Assembly (NCBI RefSeq): GCF_020531905.1
Contig: NZ_JAJAWG010000007.1
Coordinates: 110,133-174,132, forward strand
Reading direction: 5' to 3'
Source of the DNA: Deefgea salmonis
Lineage (GTDB): Bacteria; Pseudomonadota; Gammaproteobacteria; Burkholderiales; Chitinibacteraceae
DNA length: 64,000 bases
The notes below the pieces were generated by a model. That model had not been told where the DNA came from. It searched no databases and saw nothing but the letters and a program-made list of their open reading frames with translations. Positions within the stretch are counted from its first letter, which is position 1. Each line of letters begins with the position of its first letter. Positions 3,728-34,048 of this stretch are shown piece after piece. A program made the translations under genes and the position numbers.

Positions 3728-3782
3728 AAAGGGTATTGAACGCTAGGCCTTATTTTAATAAGTCTAGCGTTCAATACCCTTT
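3728..3782 (+). terminator. puuC terminator; GGGTAT-family long palindrome
   Basis: Perfect 19-bp inverted repeat (3728-3746 with 3764-3782) starting AAAGGGTATTG and ending CAATACCCTTT, with a further 6-bp inner stem CTTATT/AATAAG and a T-rich tail. It should terminate puuC and is the most perfect member of a recurrent intergenic palindrome family in this window. Confidence 0.75.
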
Positions 3783-3859
3783 TGTTTTTTTGAGGTTTAT
3801 TGGCATCGATTGCCGCTGCTTTTCAAATTGCGGCTTTTTTTAGTATAAAATCATTGCCG

Positions 3860-4168
3860 ATGGATTCCCAGCGAGCGCGCATCTTATTTTGCTCTAAACA
3901 GCGGCATTGTTTTCATCGGCGCAAAGCCAAAGTGTTCCGCTGCCAGCAGCTGGTGAGTGAATTGGCGTTGCTTGGCGTGGCTGTATTTGCGCCGCAATGG
4001 ACTGTTGGAACGGCCTATTTGCATTGCGATGCGGGCGATCTGGCTGCGCTACGCGTGGCGATTGAGATGTTGATTCGGGATGTTGTGATTCAGGATGCTG
4101 TGATTCGGGCATCAATGCCCAAGGTAAGACAAAGGATAAACAATGAGTACCCGAGTATTATTTGTTGA
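3860..4168 (+). CDS. possible small hypothetical protein upstream of rstA
   Basis: A 102-residue reading frame starting at ATG 3860 and overlapping the next gene by 26 bp. The middle part (ALLGVAVFAPQW, DAGDLAALRVAIEML) looks protein-like and amphipathic, but no family is recognised, the N-terminal third is rich in Arg/Lys/Cys, and no clear Shine-Dalgarno is present. It may be real and coupled to the response regulator, or simply an open frame in the rstA leader. Confidence 0.3.
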   Translation: MDSQRARILFCSKQRHCFHRRKAKVFRCQQLVSELALLGVAVFAPQWTVGTAYLHCDAGDLAALRVAIEMLIRDVVIQDAVIRASMPKVRQRINNEYPSIIC

Positions 4169-4862
4169 AGACGACGCTGAATTAGCCGAATTAATTGGCG
4201 GTTTTTTGCGCTCGTTTGAGTTTACCGTCGAAGTACTCGGCGATGGTTTAGGGGTGAATGACAATGTGAAAGCCAATCCTCCTGATTTGATTTTGCTCGA
4301 TATTATGTTGCCCGGTAAAGATGGCTTGACCATTTGCCGCGAATTGCGTGAGTTTTATACTGGACCGATTGTGCTGCTCACCTCGCTCAATAGCGATATG
4401 AATCAGATTTTGGGCTTTGAAATCGGCGCGACTGATTACGTAGTTAAAACCACGCCGCCTTCGGTGCTATTGGCGCGGATTCGTTCTCATTTACGCCACG
4501 CCGGTAGTGGCAGCCTGCTGGCGGCAGTGCCGGTGCAAGATCAATCACGGCTTAATTTTGGACGTTTGCAAATTGATGCCCGTAATCGCAGCGCGGTGTA
4601 TCGCGGCGAACAAATGGGTTTGTCCAGTAGCGATTTTGATTTGCTGTGGGAATTGGCCAGCCACGCCGGCGAGATTTTAAGCCGTGATCATTTGCTGAAA
4701 AAACTGCGCGGTATTGAATACGATGGCCTAGATCGCAGTATGGATGTGGCGATTTCTCGCTTACGTAAAAAACTCGACGACGATCCGATTGACCCCCGCA
4801 AAATCAAAACCATTCGTAACAAAGGGTATTTGTTTGCGAGCGATATCTGGCAAGACGAGTAA
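4143..4862 (+). CDS. rstA: OmpR-family response regulator, RstA-like
   Basis: Two-domain transcription regulator of 239 residues. The receiver domain (about 3-115) has acidic pair D10/D11, phosphoacceptor D53 in LLDIMLPGKDG, T80 and K102. The C-terminal winged helix (about 135-235) ends with the typical AISRLRKKL...IRNKGYLF segment that contacts DNA. The partner kinase lies 220 bp downstream on the same strand and is clearly RstB-like, which supports the RstA assignment. Its target genes cannot be told from this window. A hairpin and a CACAGAG repeat lie between the two genes. Confidence 0.82.
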   Translation: MSTRVLFVEDDAELAELIGGFLRSFEFTVEVLGDGLGVNDNVKANPPDLILLDIMLPGKDGLTICRELREFYTGPIVLLTSLNSDMNQILGFEIGATDYVVKTTPPSVLLARIRSHLRHAGSGSLLAAVPVQDQSRLNFGRLQIDARNRSAVYRGEQMGLSSSDFDLLWELASHAGEILSRDHLLKKLRGIEYDGLDRSMDVAISRLRKKLDDDPIDPRKIKTIRNKGYLFASDIWQDE

Positions 4863-4868
4863 TCATAT

Positions 4869-4897
4869 ACCCTAGTATTTATTCTAAATACGAGGGT
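4869..4897. repeat. short hairpin after rstA
   Basis: Inverted repeat ACCCTAGTATTTA / TAAATACGAGGGT (12 of 13 pairs, 3-nt loop), 7 bp after the rstA stop. It may attenuate read-through into rstB. Its ends resemble the GGGTAT-type family in reverse order. Confidence 0.5.
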
Positions 4898-4910
4898 GAA
4901 AAAATGATTT

Positions 4911-5036
4911 ACCACAGAGGCACAGAGACACAGAGAAAACCATTAGATTGGGTGCTGTAGCGAAACCAAAACTGATTTTGTTCAAAGGTGTCTTTTGTTT
5001 TTCCTCTGCGTCTCTGCGTCTCTGTGCCTCTGTGGT
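4911..5036. repeat. CACAGAG inverted-repeat element
   Basis: Left arm 4911-4936 reads ACCACAGAGGCACAGAGACA and onward; right arm about 5001-5036 is its near-complement (CTCTGCGTCTCTGCGTCTCT and onward). Each arm is built from degenerate 7-9 base units of CACAGAG type, with about 65 bases between the arms. It sits between rstA and rstB. Similar elements are at 31280-31308 (half) and 55090-55185. Confidence 0.8.
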
Positions 5037-5082
5037 GAGGTTTTTCTAGCCATATTCTAATATTTCGCCCCTCGGATTTTTC

Positions 5083-6378
5083 ATGCGCCAAGTTTTTTTG
5101 CGATTTTATTTGACCGTTGTCGTGTGTTTTTTGGCCACGTCTTTACTGATTGGCGGCATTTATAAGCAGCTGATTGAGCGCACTAATCAGCGCTACCTCA
5201 CCGATATTTTTAAATCGACGGTGTCGATTATTGAAGAAGAACTTGGCGATTTGCCGCCGTCGTTATGGCATGACGAAGCATCGCGTTTGCGCGGTAAATT
5301 GCCAGTGCCGGTGCAAATTGAAAAGCTCGGCGAATACAGCTTAAGCGCCGAGAATCAACGATCTTTAGAAAAGGGCGACATTATTTTATTGCTCGATAAA
5401 GGGCTTTATATTCACCGGATTCACAAAACCGATCAAATGGTGGTGTTGGGGCCGATTCCATTTTTGACCGATTTGGATAATATTTCTTGGCTCGATTTTC
5501 TGGCCTTATTGATGATGGGGGCGGCGCTGGGCTTGCCAACGTGGCTTTGGTTGCGACCATTTTGGCGTGATTTATTGCAAATCATTCAACAAAGCCGCCG
5601 CGTAGGGCAGGGCGATTTTGCCGCCCGAGTCAAACTCGACGAAAGCTCGGCCTTGGCGTCTTTGGGCGTGACCTTCAATAGTATGGCGCAAGACGTTGAG
5701 CAGCTGACCAGCTCGCGGCGCGCCATGATTGATGCGGTCTCGCATGATTTACGCACGCCGTTAGCGCGGATGCGTTATCGCTTAGAGGCGATTAAATCCG
5801 GCACCGACAGTGGCCCGCAAGTGGCGGCGTTAGAGCGTGATTTAGGGCAGATTGACGCCTTGATCGAAGAATGGCTAACGATGTCGAGCTTAGATAGCCC
5901 GCAAATGCAGATGAATATCCAGCCGCAAGCGATGTTGCCTTGGCTGGGTAAACTTGCCGCAGAGTTGAGCTTGAGTGGCAAAGCGCCGGTGGTCGTGAAT
6001 CAAATCGATCTGCTTGACCCATATCTGGAAATGGATAGTTATTACTTTGGCCGTGCGGTGAGCAATGTGTTAAGTAATGCCCGCCGCTATGGTGGCGATA
6101 CTATTGTCATGACTTTGAAGTGGCATGAAGGCATGGCGCAATTAATGATTGATGATAATGGCGAGGGGATTCCAGAGGAGCAACGCAGTCGTTTATTGCA
6201 ACCTTTTACGCGCATGGAAGGCAGCCGTAATAAAGCCACCGGTGGTTTTGGTTTGGGGTTGGCGATTGTGGCGATGATTTTGCGTGGCCATGGCGGGCAG
6301 GTGAGTATTGAGAGTGCGCCAGCGGGCGGGGCGCGGATTATTTTGGCGTGGCCTTGTGCTTTACGGCTCGACCTGTAA
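5083..6378 (+). CDS. rstB: sensor histidine kinase, RstB-like
   Basis: Inner-membrane sensor kinase of 431 residues. TM1 is about 5-26, a short periplasmic domain (about 27-133) includes GPIPFLTDLDNISWLD as in RstB, TM2 is about 134-157, HAMP about 158-208. The phosphoacceptor is H221 in AVSHDLRTPLARMRYRLE, and the ATPase domain shows N, G1 (DNGEGIPEE) and G2 (GGFGLGLAIV) boxes. Domain sizes and the periplasmic motif match E. coli RstB well. It should phosphorylate the regulator encoded just upstream. Confidence 0.85.
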   Translation: MRQVFLRFYLTVVVCFLATSLLIGGIYKQLIERTNQRYLTDIFKSTVSIIEEELGDLPPSLWHDEASRLRGKLPVPVQIEKLGEYSLSAENQRSLEKGDIILLLDKGLYIHRIHKTDQMVVLGPIPFLTDLDNISWLDFLALLMMGAALGLPTWLWLRPFWRDLLQIIQQSRRVGQGDFAARVKLDESSALASLGVTFNSMAQDVEQLTSSRRAMIDAVSHDLRTPLARMRYRLEAIKSGTDSGPQVAALERDLGQIDALIEEWLTMSSLDSPQMQMNIQPQAMLPWLGKLAAELSLSGKAPVVVNQIDLLDPYLEMDSYYFGRAVSNVLSNARRYGGDTIVMTLKWHEGMAQLMIDDNGEGIPEEQRSRLLQPFTRMEGSRNKATGGFGLGLAIVAMILRGHGGQVSIESAPAGGARIILAWPCALRLDL

Positions 6379-25898: not shown

Positions 25899-26510
25899 TT
25901 ACTTTGATGGCGATGTCAAGTAGGCTTCTTGTATTGTTGCGATACTTGTAATAATCAGAGCGATAAGGAAAATTATAAAACCGTTTCGTATGCATTGATA
26001 TGCAATTTCATTATTGACCTGTTTTATTAGGTTGATATTTTCTTGCCCTATGAGGGCTTTTATTATTTCTATTCGTTCATTTTTTGATTTCCTATACTCA
26101 AAAATACTACCATAGCCATATGTAGGCATTAATTTGAATGCCATTAAAGAGACTATTCCTCCAATTAGCATGTATATAGGTGATAGGCTTAGTAGAGCAA
26201 TGATAAATGGCTTGATTTCACTGTTTGGCAATGATCTTGTGGTTGTGTTAGCTATCACGCCTATGGCAGTTAAGCATAAACTTAACCCTAAATTAAATTT
26301 AGATGTTTTGTCATCAATTGTTTTTGACCTTGTGTGTTCTTCTTTTAATCTTTCGGTTAGTATTTTATTGTCTAATTCGTAATAAAATAGATTTTTCTCA
26401 CTCATGAAATCTTCCGCATCTACTTTTTTTCTTTGTTCAAAACCAAGTAAATGTACGAATGGGAATGAAATAAAAAATAAGTTTCTTGATGTTGTTATTA
26501 TTTTTTTCAT
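25899..26510 (-). CDS. small membrane protein of the ATP-grasp peptide cluster
   Basis: 203 residues, not recognised. A Lys/Glu-rich helical stretch (about 45-70, LTERLKEEHTRSKTIDDK) precedes hydrophobic helices at about 72-88, 102-125 and 176-194, with YQCIRNGF before the last; residues 9-23 are also hydrophobic. The start overlaps the ligase stop by 4 nt, with GGAGG six bases upstream. An inner start (M36 at 26405, GGAAG upstream) would remove the first hydrophobic stretch. It could be an immunity, export or effector protein; the 2-3 helix plus coiled-coil form recalls SLATT-type defence proteins, but no motif proves this. Very AT-rich, unlike the flanks. Confidence 0.75.
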   Translation of the reverse strand: MKKIITTSRNLFFISFPFVHLLGFEQRKKVDAEDFMSEKNLFYYELDNKILTERLKEEHTRSKTIDDKTSKFNLGLSLCLTAIGVIANTTTRSLPNSEIKPFIIALLSLSPIYMLIGGIVSLMAFKLMPTYGYGSIFEYRKSKNERIEIIKALIGQENINLIKQVNNEIAYQCIRNGFIIFLIALIITSIATIQEAYLTSPSK

Positions 26511-27436
26511 GATAGCGCCTCCGCAATGCAGAGCTCTATTTTTCTATCTTCGTTTGAGAGCCAACCCCATTCACCTGTAGGGTTTATTTCTATGAAGTAA
26601 TAATCTCCATTGCTCTCGATTAAGTCAATTGCGCCAAAATTAAGCCCTAGTGCCACCATTAATTTATAGCATTTTGATTTTATTTTTTTTGGTAGTTCGA
26701 TGTTGGTGTACTCTAATTCATCTTTTTTTAATAATCTCCAGTCGTCATCAATACCATATCCATTGGATGTTATTTTTACTGAAAAAATATGCTTTTTGAT
26801 TATTGTTACTCTAATATCAGTCTTGTTTGTTATATAGTTTTGGACTATTAAAGGTGCAGATCCAATTGTTTCATAAGTTAAATCGGATTTTTTAACGCTT
26901 GAAGTATATGTGAATAGACAGTCATCACCATCCCTGAGTAATACAGTATCTAAAGATTTTACTATTATCTTTTCTTGGAATGACTTGGCCTCATTAAAAC
27001 TATTGCTGATTTGTGTTTTTGGTATTTTAAATCCAATTTTTGATGCGATCATAAGTTGATATGGTTTGGATTCTGAAGAGTAGGTGTTTGCAGGCCAGTT
27101 CATCCAAAATGCATCATCAAAAATCATAAGACCTCGTAAAAATGCAGTCCATTGAGATTTAGATAGTTGATCTTCTAAGCTCAAAGATTTTTCTGGTGTA
27201 TTCCTTAAAAATATGGGCTGCCTAAACCAAATTGATTTTATTTTTTTGATTTTCCTGTTAATCCCATTTCCAGTGATTGATATTGTTTTTTTTTCTGGAT
27301 CAATGCTTATTTGATGCTTGTGAATATTTTCTTTGTTTAGTCTTATGTAATCAACTTTTGATTTTTCTAATTCTTGAATAACCAAATCAATAGAGAAGTC
27401 ATATATGCTTGAAATAATTAAACATGATTTTTTCAT
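26507..27436 (-). CDS. ATP-grasp peptide ligase, MvdD/graspetide-synthetase type
   Basis: 309 residues. The N-terminal region (about 1-95) follows the pre-ATP-grasp pattern of MvdC/MvdD enzymes: LIISSIYDFSIDLVIQEL, DYIRLNKE, then SIWFRQP. The middle has MNWPANTYSSESKPYQL and IASKIGFKIPKTQISNS, where family members bind precursor and nucleotide; the C-terminal GAIDLIESNGDYYFIEINP and GEWGWL provide Mg-ATP ligands. Such enzymes close side-chain ester or amide rings in ribosomal peptides. The gene overlaps a 67-residue ORF upstream by 4 nt, the expected place for a precursor. Its AAGGAGA is only one base from ATG; GAGAGG lies further up. Confidence 0.85.
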   Translation of the reverse strand: MKKSCLIISSIYDFSIDLVIQELEKSKVDYIRLNKENIHKHQISIDPEKKTISITGNGINRKIKKIKSIWFRQPIFLRNTPEKSLSLEDQLSKSQWTAFLRGLMIFDDAFWMNWPANTYSSESKPYQLMIASKIGFKIPKTQISNSFNEAKSFQEKIIVKSLDTVLLRDGDDCLFTYTSSVKKSDLTYETIGSAPLIVQNYITNKTDIRVTIIKKHIFSVKITSNGYGIDDDWRLLKKDELEYTNIELPKKIKSKCYKLMVALGLNFGAIDLIESNGDYYFIEINPTGEWGWLSNEDRKIELCIAEALS

Positions 27437-27636
27437 TCTCCTTTTTGATCCTCTCCAGTTTCTAAATCACACTTTTTTGTTGCTTGTACGCCAAATTCAG
27501 AGCTGTGTTGTATAAGTGGATTGTTGTTTTTTATCCAAAGGCCTCGTGTATTGTTAAAAAAACTACCTTCTGGCATTTCTGGTGTCTGATGGTAAGGTTT
27601 TCTTTTTGCTAACCTTATTAGTAAATGTTCTTGCAT
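27433..27636 (-). CDS. candidate precursor peptide for the ATP-grasp ligase
   Basis: 67 residues, no known family. ATG 27636 has AAGGA seven bases upstream. N-terminal MQEHLLIRLAKRKPYHQTP could be a leader helix; the middle is Asn-rich; the last 15 residues (TKKCDLETGEDQKGE, 53-67) mix donors T53, K54, K55, T60, K65 with acceptors D57, E59, E62, D63, E67, as needed for omega-ester or amide rings. The stop overlaps the ligase start (ATGA), so the two are coupled. The precursor role is inferred from position, size and composition. Confidence 0.7.
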   Translation of the reverse strand: MQEHLLIRLAKRKPYHQTPEMPEGSFFNNTRGLWIKNNNPLIQHSSEFGVQATKKCDLETGEDQKGE

Positions 27637-31945: not shown

Positions 31946-34048
31946 TTATGGCGTTATGGTGTAGTTATATGGGAAGGTGGTGATTTTTGCTGCTTGCCCG
32001 CCACCTGCAGGTGTGGTGACCGTGATAGTTAAAATACCGCTATTTTGCGTGGCAGGACAAGTTGTAGCAAATTGAAGCTTAAATCCAAAATTGGTTTGAC
32101 CTAAAACGATGGCATCGGTCGCAATTGCAGATGAGCCAATGGTATGGCTAGTACCAGAAAGCACAGAACCTTGCCCATTGGTACTTGCAATCGCGATCGT
32201 CGTACCTGCGGGCAAGATATTGCCTTTTTCATCCGGGATATAGATGGTGTAATCTTTGTTCGTTCCGCAGGTGCCAGTAACTGGTGCCGCAGGGCTGAGT
32301 ACAGGTGTTTTTGGCGTGTCACTAGAGAAAATAAATGTTGCCTGTTTGAAGATATACAGTGTTTTTTGGCTGGCGCATTTTGTAAATGTGGAGCTTTTAC
32401 ATAAAGACGCATTTAGCTTTCCATCTGCGGCTTGATAGATACCATCAAAGTTAAAGTCAATTAATTGATCGTTATTATTAAATACTGTGTCTTCATCTTT
32501 ATCTATGAACGCTTCGCCAATATCTGTTGATTTACCTGTATCGTCTTTTAGCTCACTATCTTGATCCGCAACAAGATTAAAACCAATTGCTTTGCTGGTT
32601 AATGGATCAATTGTTGGATTGTAGCGGTCAAAGAAACTTTCTTCGCCAATGGCATATGCCACCACGTGAACTCGACCATTGATGGGGCGTGGGTTTTGCG
32701 AAGTTAAAGTGATTTGGCAGCTGCTATCCACCGTAGTGCAACTACCTTGGGTGCCTGTGCCAATACGGCCACCGTCGGTAATAAAGTTAATCGCGGTGCC
32801 GTCCGGCACAGGGTTATTAAAGTGATCGGCAAAGCGCATGGTGATTTTGGCTTCGGTGCCATCATAATTCCAGCCATTGATATTGTATTTATCCGCAGCC
32901 AATGAAATTGAATCTTGGTCTGGGAAGCCCGAGCTAATCGCTAATTTTCCTGAGGTACTACTTAAGGCTCCCGCTGTGGCAGTTACACGGATTGAAGTCG
33001 GTTGATTGCCAGAAATCACTGTGGCATTTGCAATGCCATTGCTGTCGGTGGTTACGGTGACCTTACCTGATACGGCATTGAGTAAAGTAACGCCGCCAGC
33101 TGATGTGTCTAAGGCAAAAGTGACCGCTTGACCGGGAATTGGCGCTCCGGTGGCATCGACCACTTTGAATTGCACCTGGGCAGTATCAGGGCGCGTTGCG
33201 CTGGCATAGCCCTTGAGGGTGATTACGCCATCAGTAGGGGTAATCGCATTAAATGAGAGGGATGCTGCTGTGGGCGGCGCAATGGCGACTTTTACGTTTT
33301 GGCTTTGTCCGTTAGATAGTGTTGCAGTAATCGTATCGGTGTTGGCGCAGCCTTTGTCAGTAAATGAAGCAATCGCTTTACCGCTGGCATTGGTGACGGC
33401 TGTTGCGTCGATGGTGGCTTTGTTAGCTTGCGCGCATTGCGATGAAAAATTAACAGTTTGCCCAGAAATTGGCTTGCCATTGGCACTGACCAGCACTTCT
33501 ACGCTGGTATTGGCATTGGCACTGATGCTGGTTAGGCCAGCCAGCATGCTATCAATTTTTAATGTGGAAGAACCAATTTGATACGCCATCGAATTGGTAA
33601 TGGTTTGATCGGTGCCAGTAGCGCCTTTATATTTGGCGCTGGCAATCAATTCGCCTACTTTGCCACTGGCGCTGATATTGGCCACACTGAGTGTGGTCGT
33701 CATTTGGCCAGCAGCGTTGGTTAGACCTGCATTCGGGCTTAGCAAGCCTAAGGTTGTATCGGTCGTAAAATTCACCACCGCGCCAGCAATCGGGCTGTTA
33801 TTGGCATCGACGACTAGCGCAGTCACTTGAATGGTTTCGCCAAGGGCAAGGGTGGCTTGTGTTGGTGTTAGAACGATTTTAGCAACCGCAGGAATGGGCG
33901 TCGGCGTTGCGCCACCACCTCCGCCACTACTGCCTCCCGCAATCAGGTCGGCGCCACTGGGGCCGCCGCCGCCGCAGGCGGTGAGTGTACTGGCGATTGC
34001 TGCGGCAATGGCCAGATGAATAAGGGCTTTACGGTGGGTTGAATGCAT
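31946..34048 (-). CDS. lipoprotein with tandem bacterial Ig-like (Big_1/invasin-type) domains
   Basis: 700 residues. Signal peptide with lipobox LTACGG (Cys about 25), then a Gly-rich linker and at least three to four Ig-like repeats of about 95 residues with the Big_1 pattern (IVLTPTQATLALGETIQVTA, NSPIAGAVVNFTT, TNAAGQMTTTL; GKPISGQTVNFSS; GAPIPGQAVTFAL; NPVPDGTAINFIT). A later stretch with many D/N residues (DKDEDTVFNNNDQLID) looks calcium-binding. Such proteins sit in the outer membrane and serve adhesion or biofilm. Single gene with its own terminator; start ATG 34048. Confidence 0.88.
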   Translation of the reverse strand: MHSTHRKALIHLAIAAAIASTLTACGGGGPSGADLIAGGSSGGGGGATPTPIPAVAKIVLTPTQATLALGETIQVTALVVDANNSPIAGAVVNFTTDTTLGLLSPNAGLTNAAGQMTTTLSVANISASGKVGELIASAKYKGATGTDQTITNSMAYQIGSSTLKIDSMLAGLTSISANANTSVEVLVSANGKPISGQTVNFSSQCAQANKATIDATAVTNASGKAIASFTDKGCANTDTITATLSNGQSQNVKVAIAPPTAASLSFNAITPTDGVITLKGYASATRPDTAQVQFKVVDATGAPIPGQAVTFALDTSAGGVTLLNAVSGKVTVTTDSNGIANATVISGNQPTSIRVTATAGALSSTSGKLAISSGFPDQDSISLAADKYNINGWNYDGTEAKITMRFADHFNNPVPDGTAINFITDGGRIGTGTQGSCTTVDSSCQITLTSQNPRPINGRVHVVAYAIGEESFFDRYNPTIDPLTSKAIGFNLVADQDSELKDDTGKSTDIGEAFIDKDEDTVFNNNDQLIDFNFDGIYQAADGKLNASLCKSSTFTKCASQKTLYIFKQATFIFSSDTPKTPVLSPAAPVTGTCGTNKDYTIYIPDEKGNILPAGTTIAIASTNGQGSVLSGTSHTIGSSAIATDAIVLGQTNFGFKLQFATTCPATQNSGILTITVTTPAGGGQAAKITTFPYNYTITP

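Follow-up and report, generated by a model that had tools for sequence, protein, structure and literature searches.

Graspetide loci, in which the gene for a precursor peptide adjoins the gene for an ATP-grasp ligase, are the closest described relatives of the three-gene cassette considered here. The cassette, which encodes a small peptide, a ligase and a membrane protein, lies in a 64,000-nucleotide stretch of the Deefgea salmonis genome (contig NZ_JAJAWG010000007.1, positions 110,133 to 174,132), referred to below as the window; loci and genomes used for comparison carry numbers beginning with L and G, respectively. The cassette resembles microviridin clusters (MdnB/MdnC, MvdC/MvdD, CdnC) in its ligase family and in the position of the precursor gene next to the ligase gene. 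The microviridin core has the form TxKxPSD, from which the core in the window differs. Moreover, a microviridin-type locus (L048) encodes a pair of ligases together with an HlyD adaptor and an ATP-binding cassette transporter that contains a peptidase, whereas the window cassette has one ligase and a membrane protein.

Other described graspetide loci come closer in layout. By description, two kinds of locus surveyed by Makarova et al. 2022 (PMC8939145), the thuringinin type (‘cluster 18’) and ‘cluster 40’, also combine a precursor with one ligase and a membrane protein that is uncharacterised, and the ‘cluster 18’ loci are, like the cassette, mostly devoid of a known transporter. Membrane proteins of unclear role are listed there among graspetide partners. 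Unlike what we find for the cassette and its relatives, neither an invariant single C-terminal core nor a defence context is mentioned for clusters 18 and 40 in the available part of that survey. In rosaritide and corallotide (Carter et al. 2026, PMC13097080), a graspetide synthetase likewise has a fixed partner protein. Groups 34-35 of that study have long repeat precursors, several groups have partners of unknown family, which is again similar, and some partners are listed without any hidden Markov model. The partners that have been characterised, a peptidyl-prolyl isomerase-like chaperone and an oxygenase pathway, are unlike the membrane protein here. Rosaritide did not inhibit growth of a small panel, and the words ‘phage’ and ‘defense’ are absent from the available part of the text.

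Pycsar (the PycC cyclase with PycTM or PycTIR; PMC11224242) is alike in logic, as it combines a signal-making enzyme with a membrane effector; PycTM is a receptor that disrupts membrane integrity upon binding its nucleotide signal. As the operon contains no cyclase, with a peptide and a peptide ligase in place of the pyrimidine cyclase PycC, the cassette is not a Pycsar system. RiPPs (ribosomally synthesised and post-translationally modified peptides) in general have been linked to phage-related genes by co-expression (PMC11118758). In a literature search, with most subscription journals outside its reach, no proposal of a defence role for graspetide loci or their membrane partners was seen among the papers listed, and neither the main text of DefensePredictor (PMC13092281) nor that of an E. 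coli functional selection (PMC9519451) uses the term ‘ATP-grasp’. The best single account of the cassette, to which we give a probability of roughly 40%, is an anti-phage operon in which the ligase would ring-close the peptide core and the peptide, retained inside the cell, would activate the membrane effector.

Ligase and precursor peptide

The original prediction had called the ligase MvdD-type, and the NCBIfam models place it with the graspetide ligases: TIGR04187 (GRASP_SAV_5884; 7.8e-55, 186 bits), TIGR04185 (MvdC; 1e-49, 169 bits) and TIGR04184 (MvdD; 3e-41, 142 bits) compare with 33.5 bits for rimK_fam (2.7e-8). Because the first three matches all fall below the curated cut-offs, the enzyme is called divergent. 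A better match to RimK-type enzymes had been named as the sign of a wrong assignment; NCBIfam favours the graspetide models, whereas in Pfam the general RimK ATP-grasp domain scores above threshold (25.5 vs 21 bits) and the MvdD pre-ATP-grasp domain narrowly fails to reach it (23.4 vs 27 bits). Among solved structures, the microviridin ligase AMdnB (2e-31) and CdnC (2.4e-27) come closest, and the FGAID and FIEINPTGEWGW stretches are kept, with conserved residues D271, E283 and N285, which we take to be metal-binding. By its sequence, the ligase is a divergent graspetide-type ATP-grasp enzyme, and it very probably closes rings in the peptide core. It also matches a phage family, phrog_2599, filed as ‘moron’ (2e-21). 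The ligases of window-type loci (n = 8) form a single clade (100/100 with 28 rows, 99/99 with 29 rows).

Searching databases with the peptide yielded 8 relatives besides itself, and 19 precursors, ten of them read from loci, could be aligned. Sixteen columns are invariant, eleven of them within the last 14 residues. The C-terminal KKxDxETGEDQKG is found in 19/19 precursors, the leader varies, and overall identity to the window peptide goes down to 31%. Across 11 loci the codons of ETGED vary synonymously (GAA/GAG, four ACN, three GGN, GAT/GAC) while the residues stay fixed, so that selection at this stretch acts on the peptide itself. The ligase’s ribosome-binding site, AAAGGAG, lies inside the last codons of the peptide gene, and the invariance of QKG could therefore be due in part to this overlap. 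No Pfam or NCBIfam family was found for the peptide. The features expected of a graspetide precursor are nevertheless present: it adjoins the ligase gene, positions in the leader are conserved, and the core (TKKCDLETGEDQKGE) carries Thr/Ser/Lys donors and Asp/Glu acceptors. The peptide open reading frame (ORF) is present in all nine intact window-type clusters (the window, L002-L006 and L015-L017, L006 being short only of a whole membrane gene), so that the case named as refuting, a homologous cluster without it, did not occur among these nine.

The invariant core bears on whether the peptide leaves the cell. A secreted graspetide, acting as a bacteriocin or protease inhibitor with the membrane gene as its exporter or self-immunity gene, would agree with two statements of Makarova et al.: transport has been proposed for the membrane proteins of thuringinin loci, and all graspetides characterised until 2022 are protease inhibitors (PMC8939145). 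We nevertheless regard secretion as rather unlikely. The cassette contains no transporter or protease gene, and the core (19/19) is not diversifying as that of a secreted weapon would be expected to, the diversity lying in the leader instead, which argues that the peptide is not exported. An intracellular role is somewhat favoured.

Insertion and its genomic setting

The three minus-strand genes overlap by 4 nt at both joints, as had been reported (ATGA twice; Table 1), and the cluster is indeed richer in AT than its flanks. The guanine-plus-cytosine (GC) content is 31.5% in the three genes and 33.3% in the 2.17-kb insert vs 49.6% in the rest of the window; the lowest value among 1150 other window stretches of equal length was 41.5%. 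In the congener G005, 213 bp stand in place of the insert, with flanks 92% and 93% identical (blastn). This replacement, together with the low GC, supports the claim that the cassette was transferred. A scan of the insert revealed no transposase ORF, in line with the first reading of the sequence, and no long terminal repeats; only short direct repeats were seen.

Table 1. Coordinates of the cassette and its parts within the window.
Feature	Position	Strand	Description	Basis
Peptide gene	27433-27636	-	67 aa	ORF
Variable leader (putative), residues 1-52	27481..27636	-	conserved H4, L6, P22, G32, W34	alignment
Predicted core TKKCDLETGEDQKGE, residues 53-67	27436..27480	-		alignment; synonymous codon variation
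Peptide/ligase overlap, ATGA	27433..27436	-	4 nt	
Ligase gene	26507-27436	-	309 aa	ORF
Ligase/membrane protein overlap, ATGA	26507..26510	-	4 nt	
Membrane protein gene	25899-26510	-	203 aa; predicted membrane effector	ORF
Charged motif EEHTRSKTIDDKT, residues 57-69	26304..26342	-	start of first long helix	alignment
Low-GC inserted segment	25663..27835	none		blastn against sister genome G005; GC

Among seven Deefgea genomes, including the window’s own, the ligase occurs in the latter alone, where it is the one ligase of graspetide type. A search of 100 genomes gave three with a match at E <= 1e-3, the window’s own included; the other two matches (L013, L014) are 31% identical, one of them over part of the length only. 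The site adjoining plsC varies across the genus. Beside this gene, two congeners carry what we take, by eye and from known motifs, to be a transposase-like ORF, and congener G004 (L033, 2884-3801) carries what is presumably a DUF262/GmrSD nuclease-like ORF, recognised in the same way. The site beside plsC looks like a small hot spot. Elsewhere in the window, outside the cassette, a gene at 31946-34048 (-) encodes a 700-aa lipoprotein-like protein with repeated immunoglobulin-like stretches (by eye).

Membrane protein and distribution of the triad

At E <= 1e-3, the membrane protein has 25 relatives besides itself (e.g., in Marinobacter, Marinomonas, Zhongshania and Halomonas); its profile, run across 369 genomes of the window’s class, matched in the window’s genome only. 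In 33 aligned sequences, E58, R61, D66, K68 and K71 are at least 90% conserved, giving E-x2-R-x4-D-x-K-x2-K before the first membrane stretch. The description of a three-helix membrane protein was partly correct: the AlphaFold2 model has three long helices (48-93, 100-123 and 145-199; mean predicted local distance difference test score 83.5, predicted template modelling score 0.72), but hydropathy gives two strong membrane segments only, at about 102-120 and 173-191. No Pfam family, and no transporter family in particular, scored above cut-off for the membrane proteins; a sub-threshold match to TauE (best 0.0015) was obtained for five of the 12 window-type proteins. The lack of a transporter family does not favour a secreted product with the membrane protein as exporter.

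The order peptide-ligase-membrane protein, with genes overlapping or abutting, recurs in L002-L005, L015, L016 and L017. The hosts are Rhizobium, Agrobacterium, Martelella and Azospirillum plasmids, Komagataeibacter xylinus, Pseudomonas lini and one viral contig. The Pseudomonas lini triad lies beside tRNA-Leu with a pair of 300-nt direct repeats (84%) that are 5.8 kb apart. The viral contig, presumably a Mu-like prophage, carries the full triad (L017, 2639-4549) with minor-head/connector genes on one side and head-protease/major-head genes on the other (PHROGs). The triad is a unit with the membrane gene as its fixed partner, and the window-type family is sporadic in distribution. Thus the third gene, reported as not being a standard graspetide partner, is non-standard, but it is a conserved partner across triads and no oddity of this locus.

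A sister group, B, shares this layout: its precursor, longer than that of the window type, bears several TKT-x4-E-x-DD-type cores (by eye) and is accompanied by a related ligase and a membrane protein. Its eight ligases form one group (92/91; L008, L010, L011, L018, L019, L021, L022 and L046). They come from Pseudomonas aeruginosa RW109, Croceicoccus, plasmids of Agrobacterium sp. T29 and Sinorhizobium americanum, a faecal phage scaffold, two genomes of the window’s class and Leptospira phage LE1. In this named phage (L046, KF114876), the triad occupies about 3740-5580: a precursor with several cores, identified in the DNA in the reading frame of an annotated 37-aa ORF, a ligase annotated as RimK-like and a membrane protein of 207 aa (phrog_21292). 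A third type (L023) has a different repeat core again. The group-B membrane proteins carry E..R..(D/E).K stretches like EEHTRSKTIDDKT before the first helix. In the leaders, an aromatic-acidic pair followed by a tryptophan can be seen by eye across groups. Graspetide leaders have been described with P-h-h (PMC8939145); behind the leader tryptophan it occurs in group-B and group-C precursors, but only in some of the window type (e.g., the window’s own, not that of L002).

Graspetide ligases of other kinds were also encountered. In G218 (L024/L027), tandem ligases accompany short precursors with a GG-type leader (ELTAEQTGQVAGG); in a Pedobacter plasmid (L044, 3998-8093), a ligase lies beside lasso-peptide B2 and asparagine-synthase genes; and in a Ligilactobacillus salivarius plasmid (L045, 3875-6044), a divergent ligase is followed by a SagB/ThcOx dehydrogenase gene.

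Defence and phage surroundings

Defence genes lie beside six of the 12 window-type loci (the window, L001-L007, L009 and L015-L017, L006 and L039 being counted once) and four of the eight group-B loci, i.e., 10/20. PADLOC identified LmuA (2e-268) and LmuC at L004, GajA (2e-272) and, covering part of the protein, Dsr1 (2e-56) at L005, AbiEi and AbiEii at L006, and TmtA and a mad6/PD-T4-6-like kinase at L015; by annotation, L002 has SIR2 and PIN neighbours and L001 has AbiE. In group B, likewise by PADLOC, GajA and GajB are directly downstream of the cassette in L049, SduA is near it in L050, PDC-M01A/B are neighbours in L018, and a type II restriction-modification pair (L010, 8330-10152, on a scaffold deposited as phage) directly adjoins the triad. 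The names Gaj, Lmu, Sdu and Tmt presumably stand for Gabija, Lamassu, Shedu and Tiamat. A group-C cassette (L051) has weak PADLOC hits alongside. Two further loci, L017 and L046, are inside phage genomes. Relatives of the cassette thus lie among defence genes or travel as phage cargo, the window’s own site showing neither. As several relatives do so, defence fits better than a secreted natural product.

As a control, the annotation of one 50-kb stretch was read in each of four plasmids that carry the cassette. Seven annotated systems were counted in 63 kb around the cassettes vs one (AbiEii) in the 200 kb of control (binomial 3e-4; 1e-3 without L006), a count that leaves out four type II/Fic toxin-antitoxin pairs and an unassigned 1700-aa helicase in the controls.

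Some loci are naturally broken. L001 has lost the peptide and most of the ligase behind a transposase-like ORF, and in L009 the ligase is interrupted by IS66 genes; the membrane gene is whole in both. Conversely, L006 has a whole peptide and ligase but a membrane gene frameshifted in the second membrane helix, identically in a separate record (L039). In L007, where the ligase is cut off beside an IS630 transposase, a membrane gene was not found. Loss of the modified peptide therefore need not entail loss of the membrane protein, nor need loss of the membrane protein entail that of peptide and ligase. Since each partner persists intact where the other is broken, neither seems to be the antidote or immunity gene of the other; a joint need for action fits better. 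For a secreted toxic peptide with the membrane protein as immunity, survival of peptide and ligase in L006/L039 would be surprising. The same breaks bear on an addiction module, in which the membrane protein would be toxic and the modified peptide would neutralise it. Such a toxin-antitoxin pair would be in keeping with the small size of the membrane protein, with tight translational coupling, with the occurrence on plasmids and in phages, and with AbiE genes nearby, but L001 and L009 have kept an intact membrane gene although the ligase is destroyed, and we hold this explanation to be improbable. The losses may, however, be recent.

Some of the group-B membrane proteins also match a known effector. 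Compared with PADLOC at E <= 1, five of seven matched PycTM (best 4.1e-7; L008, 3e-5 over 129/160 model positions); by our grading two matches are convincing to moderate, three are weak and two proteins have none. The window’s own protein does not match. At E <= 10, nothing was found for PycTM in six other membrane proteins, nor in those of LE1 and L023. These matches would be left unexplained if the cyclised peptide were an intracellular regulator, i.e., if it inhibited a protease of host or phage origin, with the membrane protein as its anchor or as the protected substrate. The protease inhibition described for graspetides (PMC8939145), the invariant core and the absence of an exporter from the cassette are in keeping with such a regulator; no tie between the cassette and any protease gene was seen, and we consider it improbable.

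Discussion

The prediction is supported in part, namely as regards a transferred RiPP cassette of graspetide type whose third gene is non-standard. Calling it a possible new class is fair with regard to architecture, but the ring chemistry itself is presumably of the known graspetide kind.

For the anti-phage operon, we envisage that: the ligase would act on the C-terminal core of the 67-residue peptide, closing rings by ester or amide bonds; the ring-closed peptide would remain in the cell and act as a ligand or signal for the membrane protein; the latter, as effector, would be switched on by it; and the system would be triggered by infection, candidate triggers being a phage-sensed change of the ligase or of the peptide, or proteolytic removal of the leader. 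The membrane might be damaged as a result, and the phage thereby stopped. In its logic the system would be Pycsar-like, a peptide cyclase and precursor replacing the nucleotide cyclase in a pairing of signal synthase with membrane receptor. In a stronger version, the ring-closed peptide would be the second messenger in place of a cyclic nucleotide, and a PycTM-like effector would be opened by it, which would bring RiPP chemistry into intracellular innate immunity; we consider this version doubtful.

Several observations weigh against the anti-phage account. At the window’s own site, the neighbours of the cassette are, by eye, housekeeping genes and not a defence island, and no defence neighbour was seen, from annotation or ORF starts read by eye and without a PADLOC scan, at L003, L007, L009, L016, L008, L011 and L019. 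The neighbours submitted to PADLOC had been chosen as promising-looking, with control by annotation only. Moreover, L001, L004 and L006 represent one common neighbourhood, and L002 and L005 have their upstream side in common. The plasmid comparison becomes 6 vs 1 (p 0.001) without the PIN gene, and 7 vs 5 (p 0.011) if type II and Fic toxin-antitoxin pairs are included.

The membrane protein likewise offers little direct support. None of the window’s three proteins gave a PADLOC hit; for its membrane protein and 32 aligned relatives, no effector match was obtained at E <= 0.1, the best value being 0.19 to the ‘Effector 2TM’ model (3/33). A fold search with the window’s membrane protein returned no match distinct from common helical bundles, and the profile comparison between window-type and group-B membrane proteins was not significant (probability 1.9%, p 0.026). 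In a second scan, with PDLC02364 over whole records, the link was modest for L021 (27.5 bits, 8.4e-6) and L008 (19 bits, 4.1e-4), merely 0.02-0.11 for L018, L022, L019 and LE1, and absent from L010, L011, L023’s genome and the window’s own genome; the model also matched at E <= 1 in seven of 14 control genomes. In view of these scores and control matches, we judge kinship with PycTM, as read from sequence, to be fair for two or three group-B membrane proteins and weak for the remaining ones.

To our knowledge, the signals of the defence systems that can be named are nucleotides or nucleotide derivatives. If the anti-phage account is true, a peptide would join these defence signals, and graspetide chemistry would gain an intracellular function, as compared with the protease inhibitors characterised until 2022 (PMC8939145), within a cassette that is small and portable.

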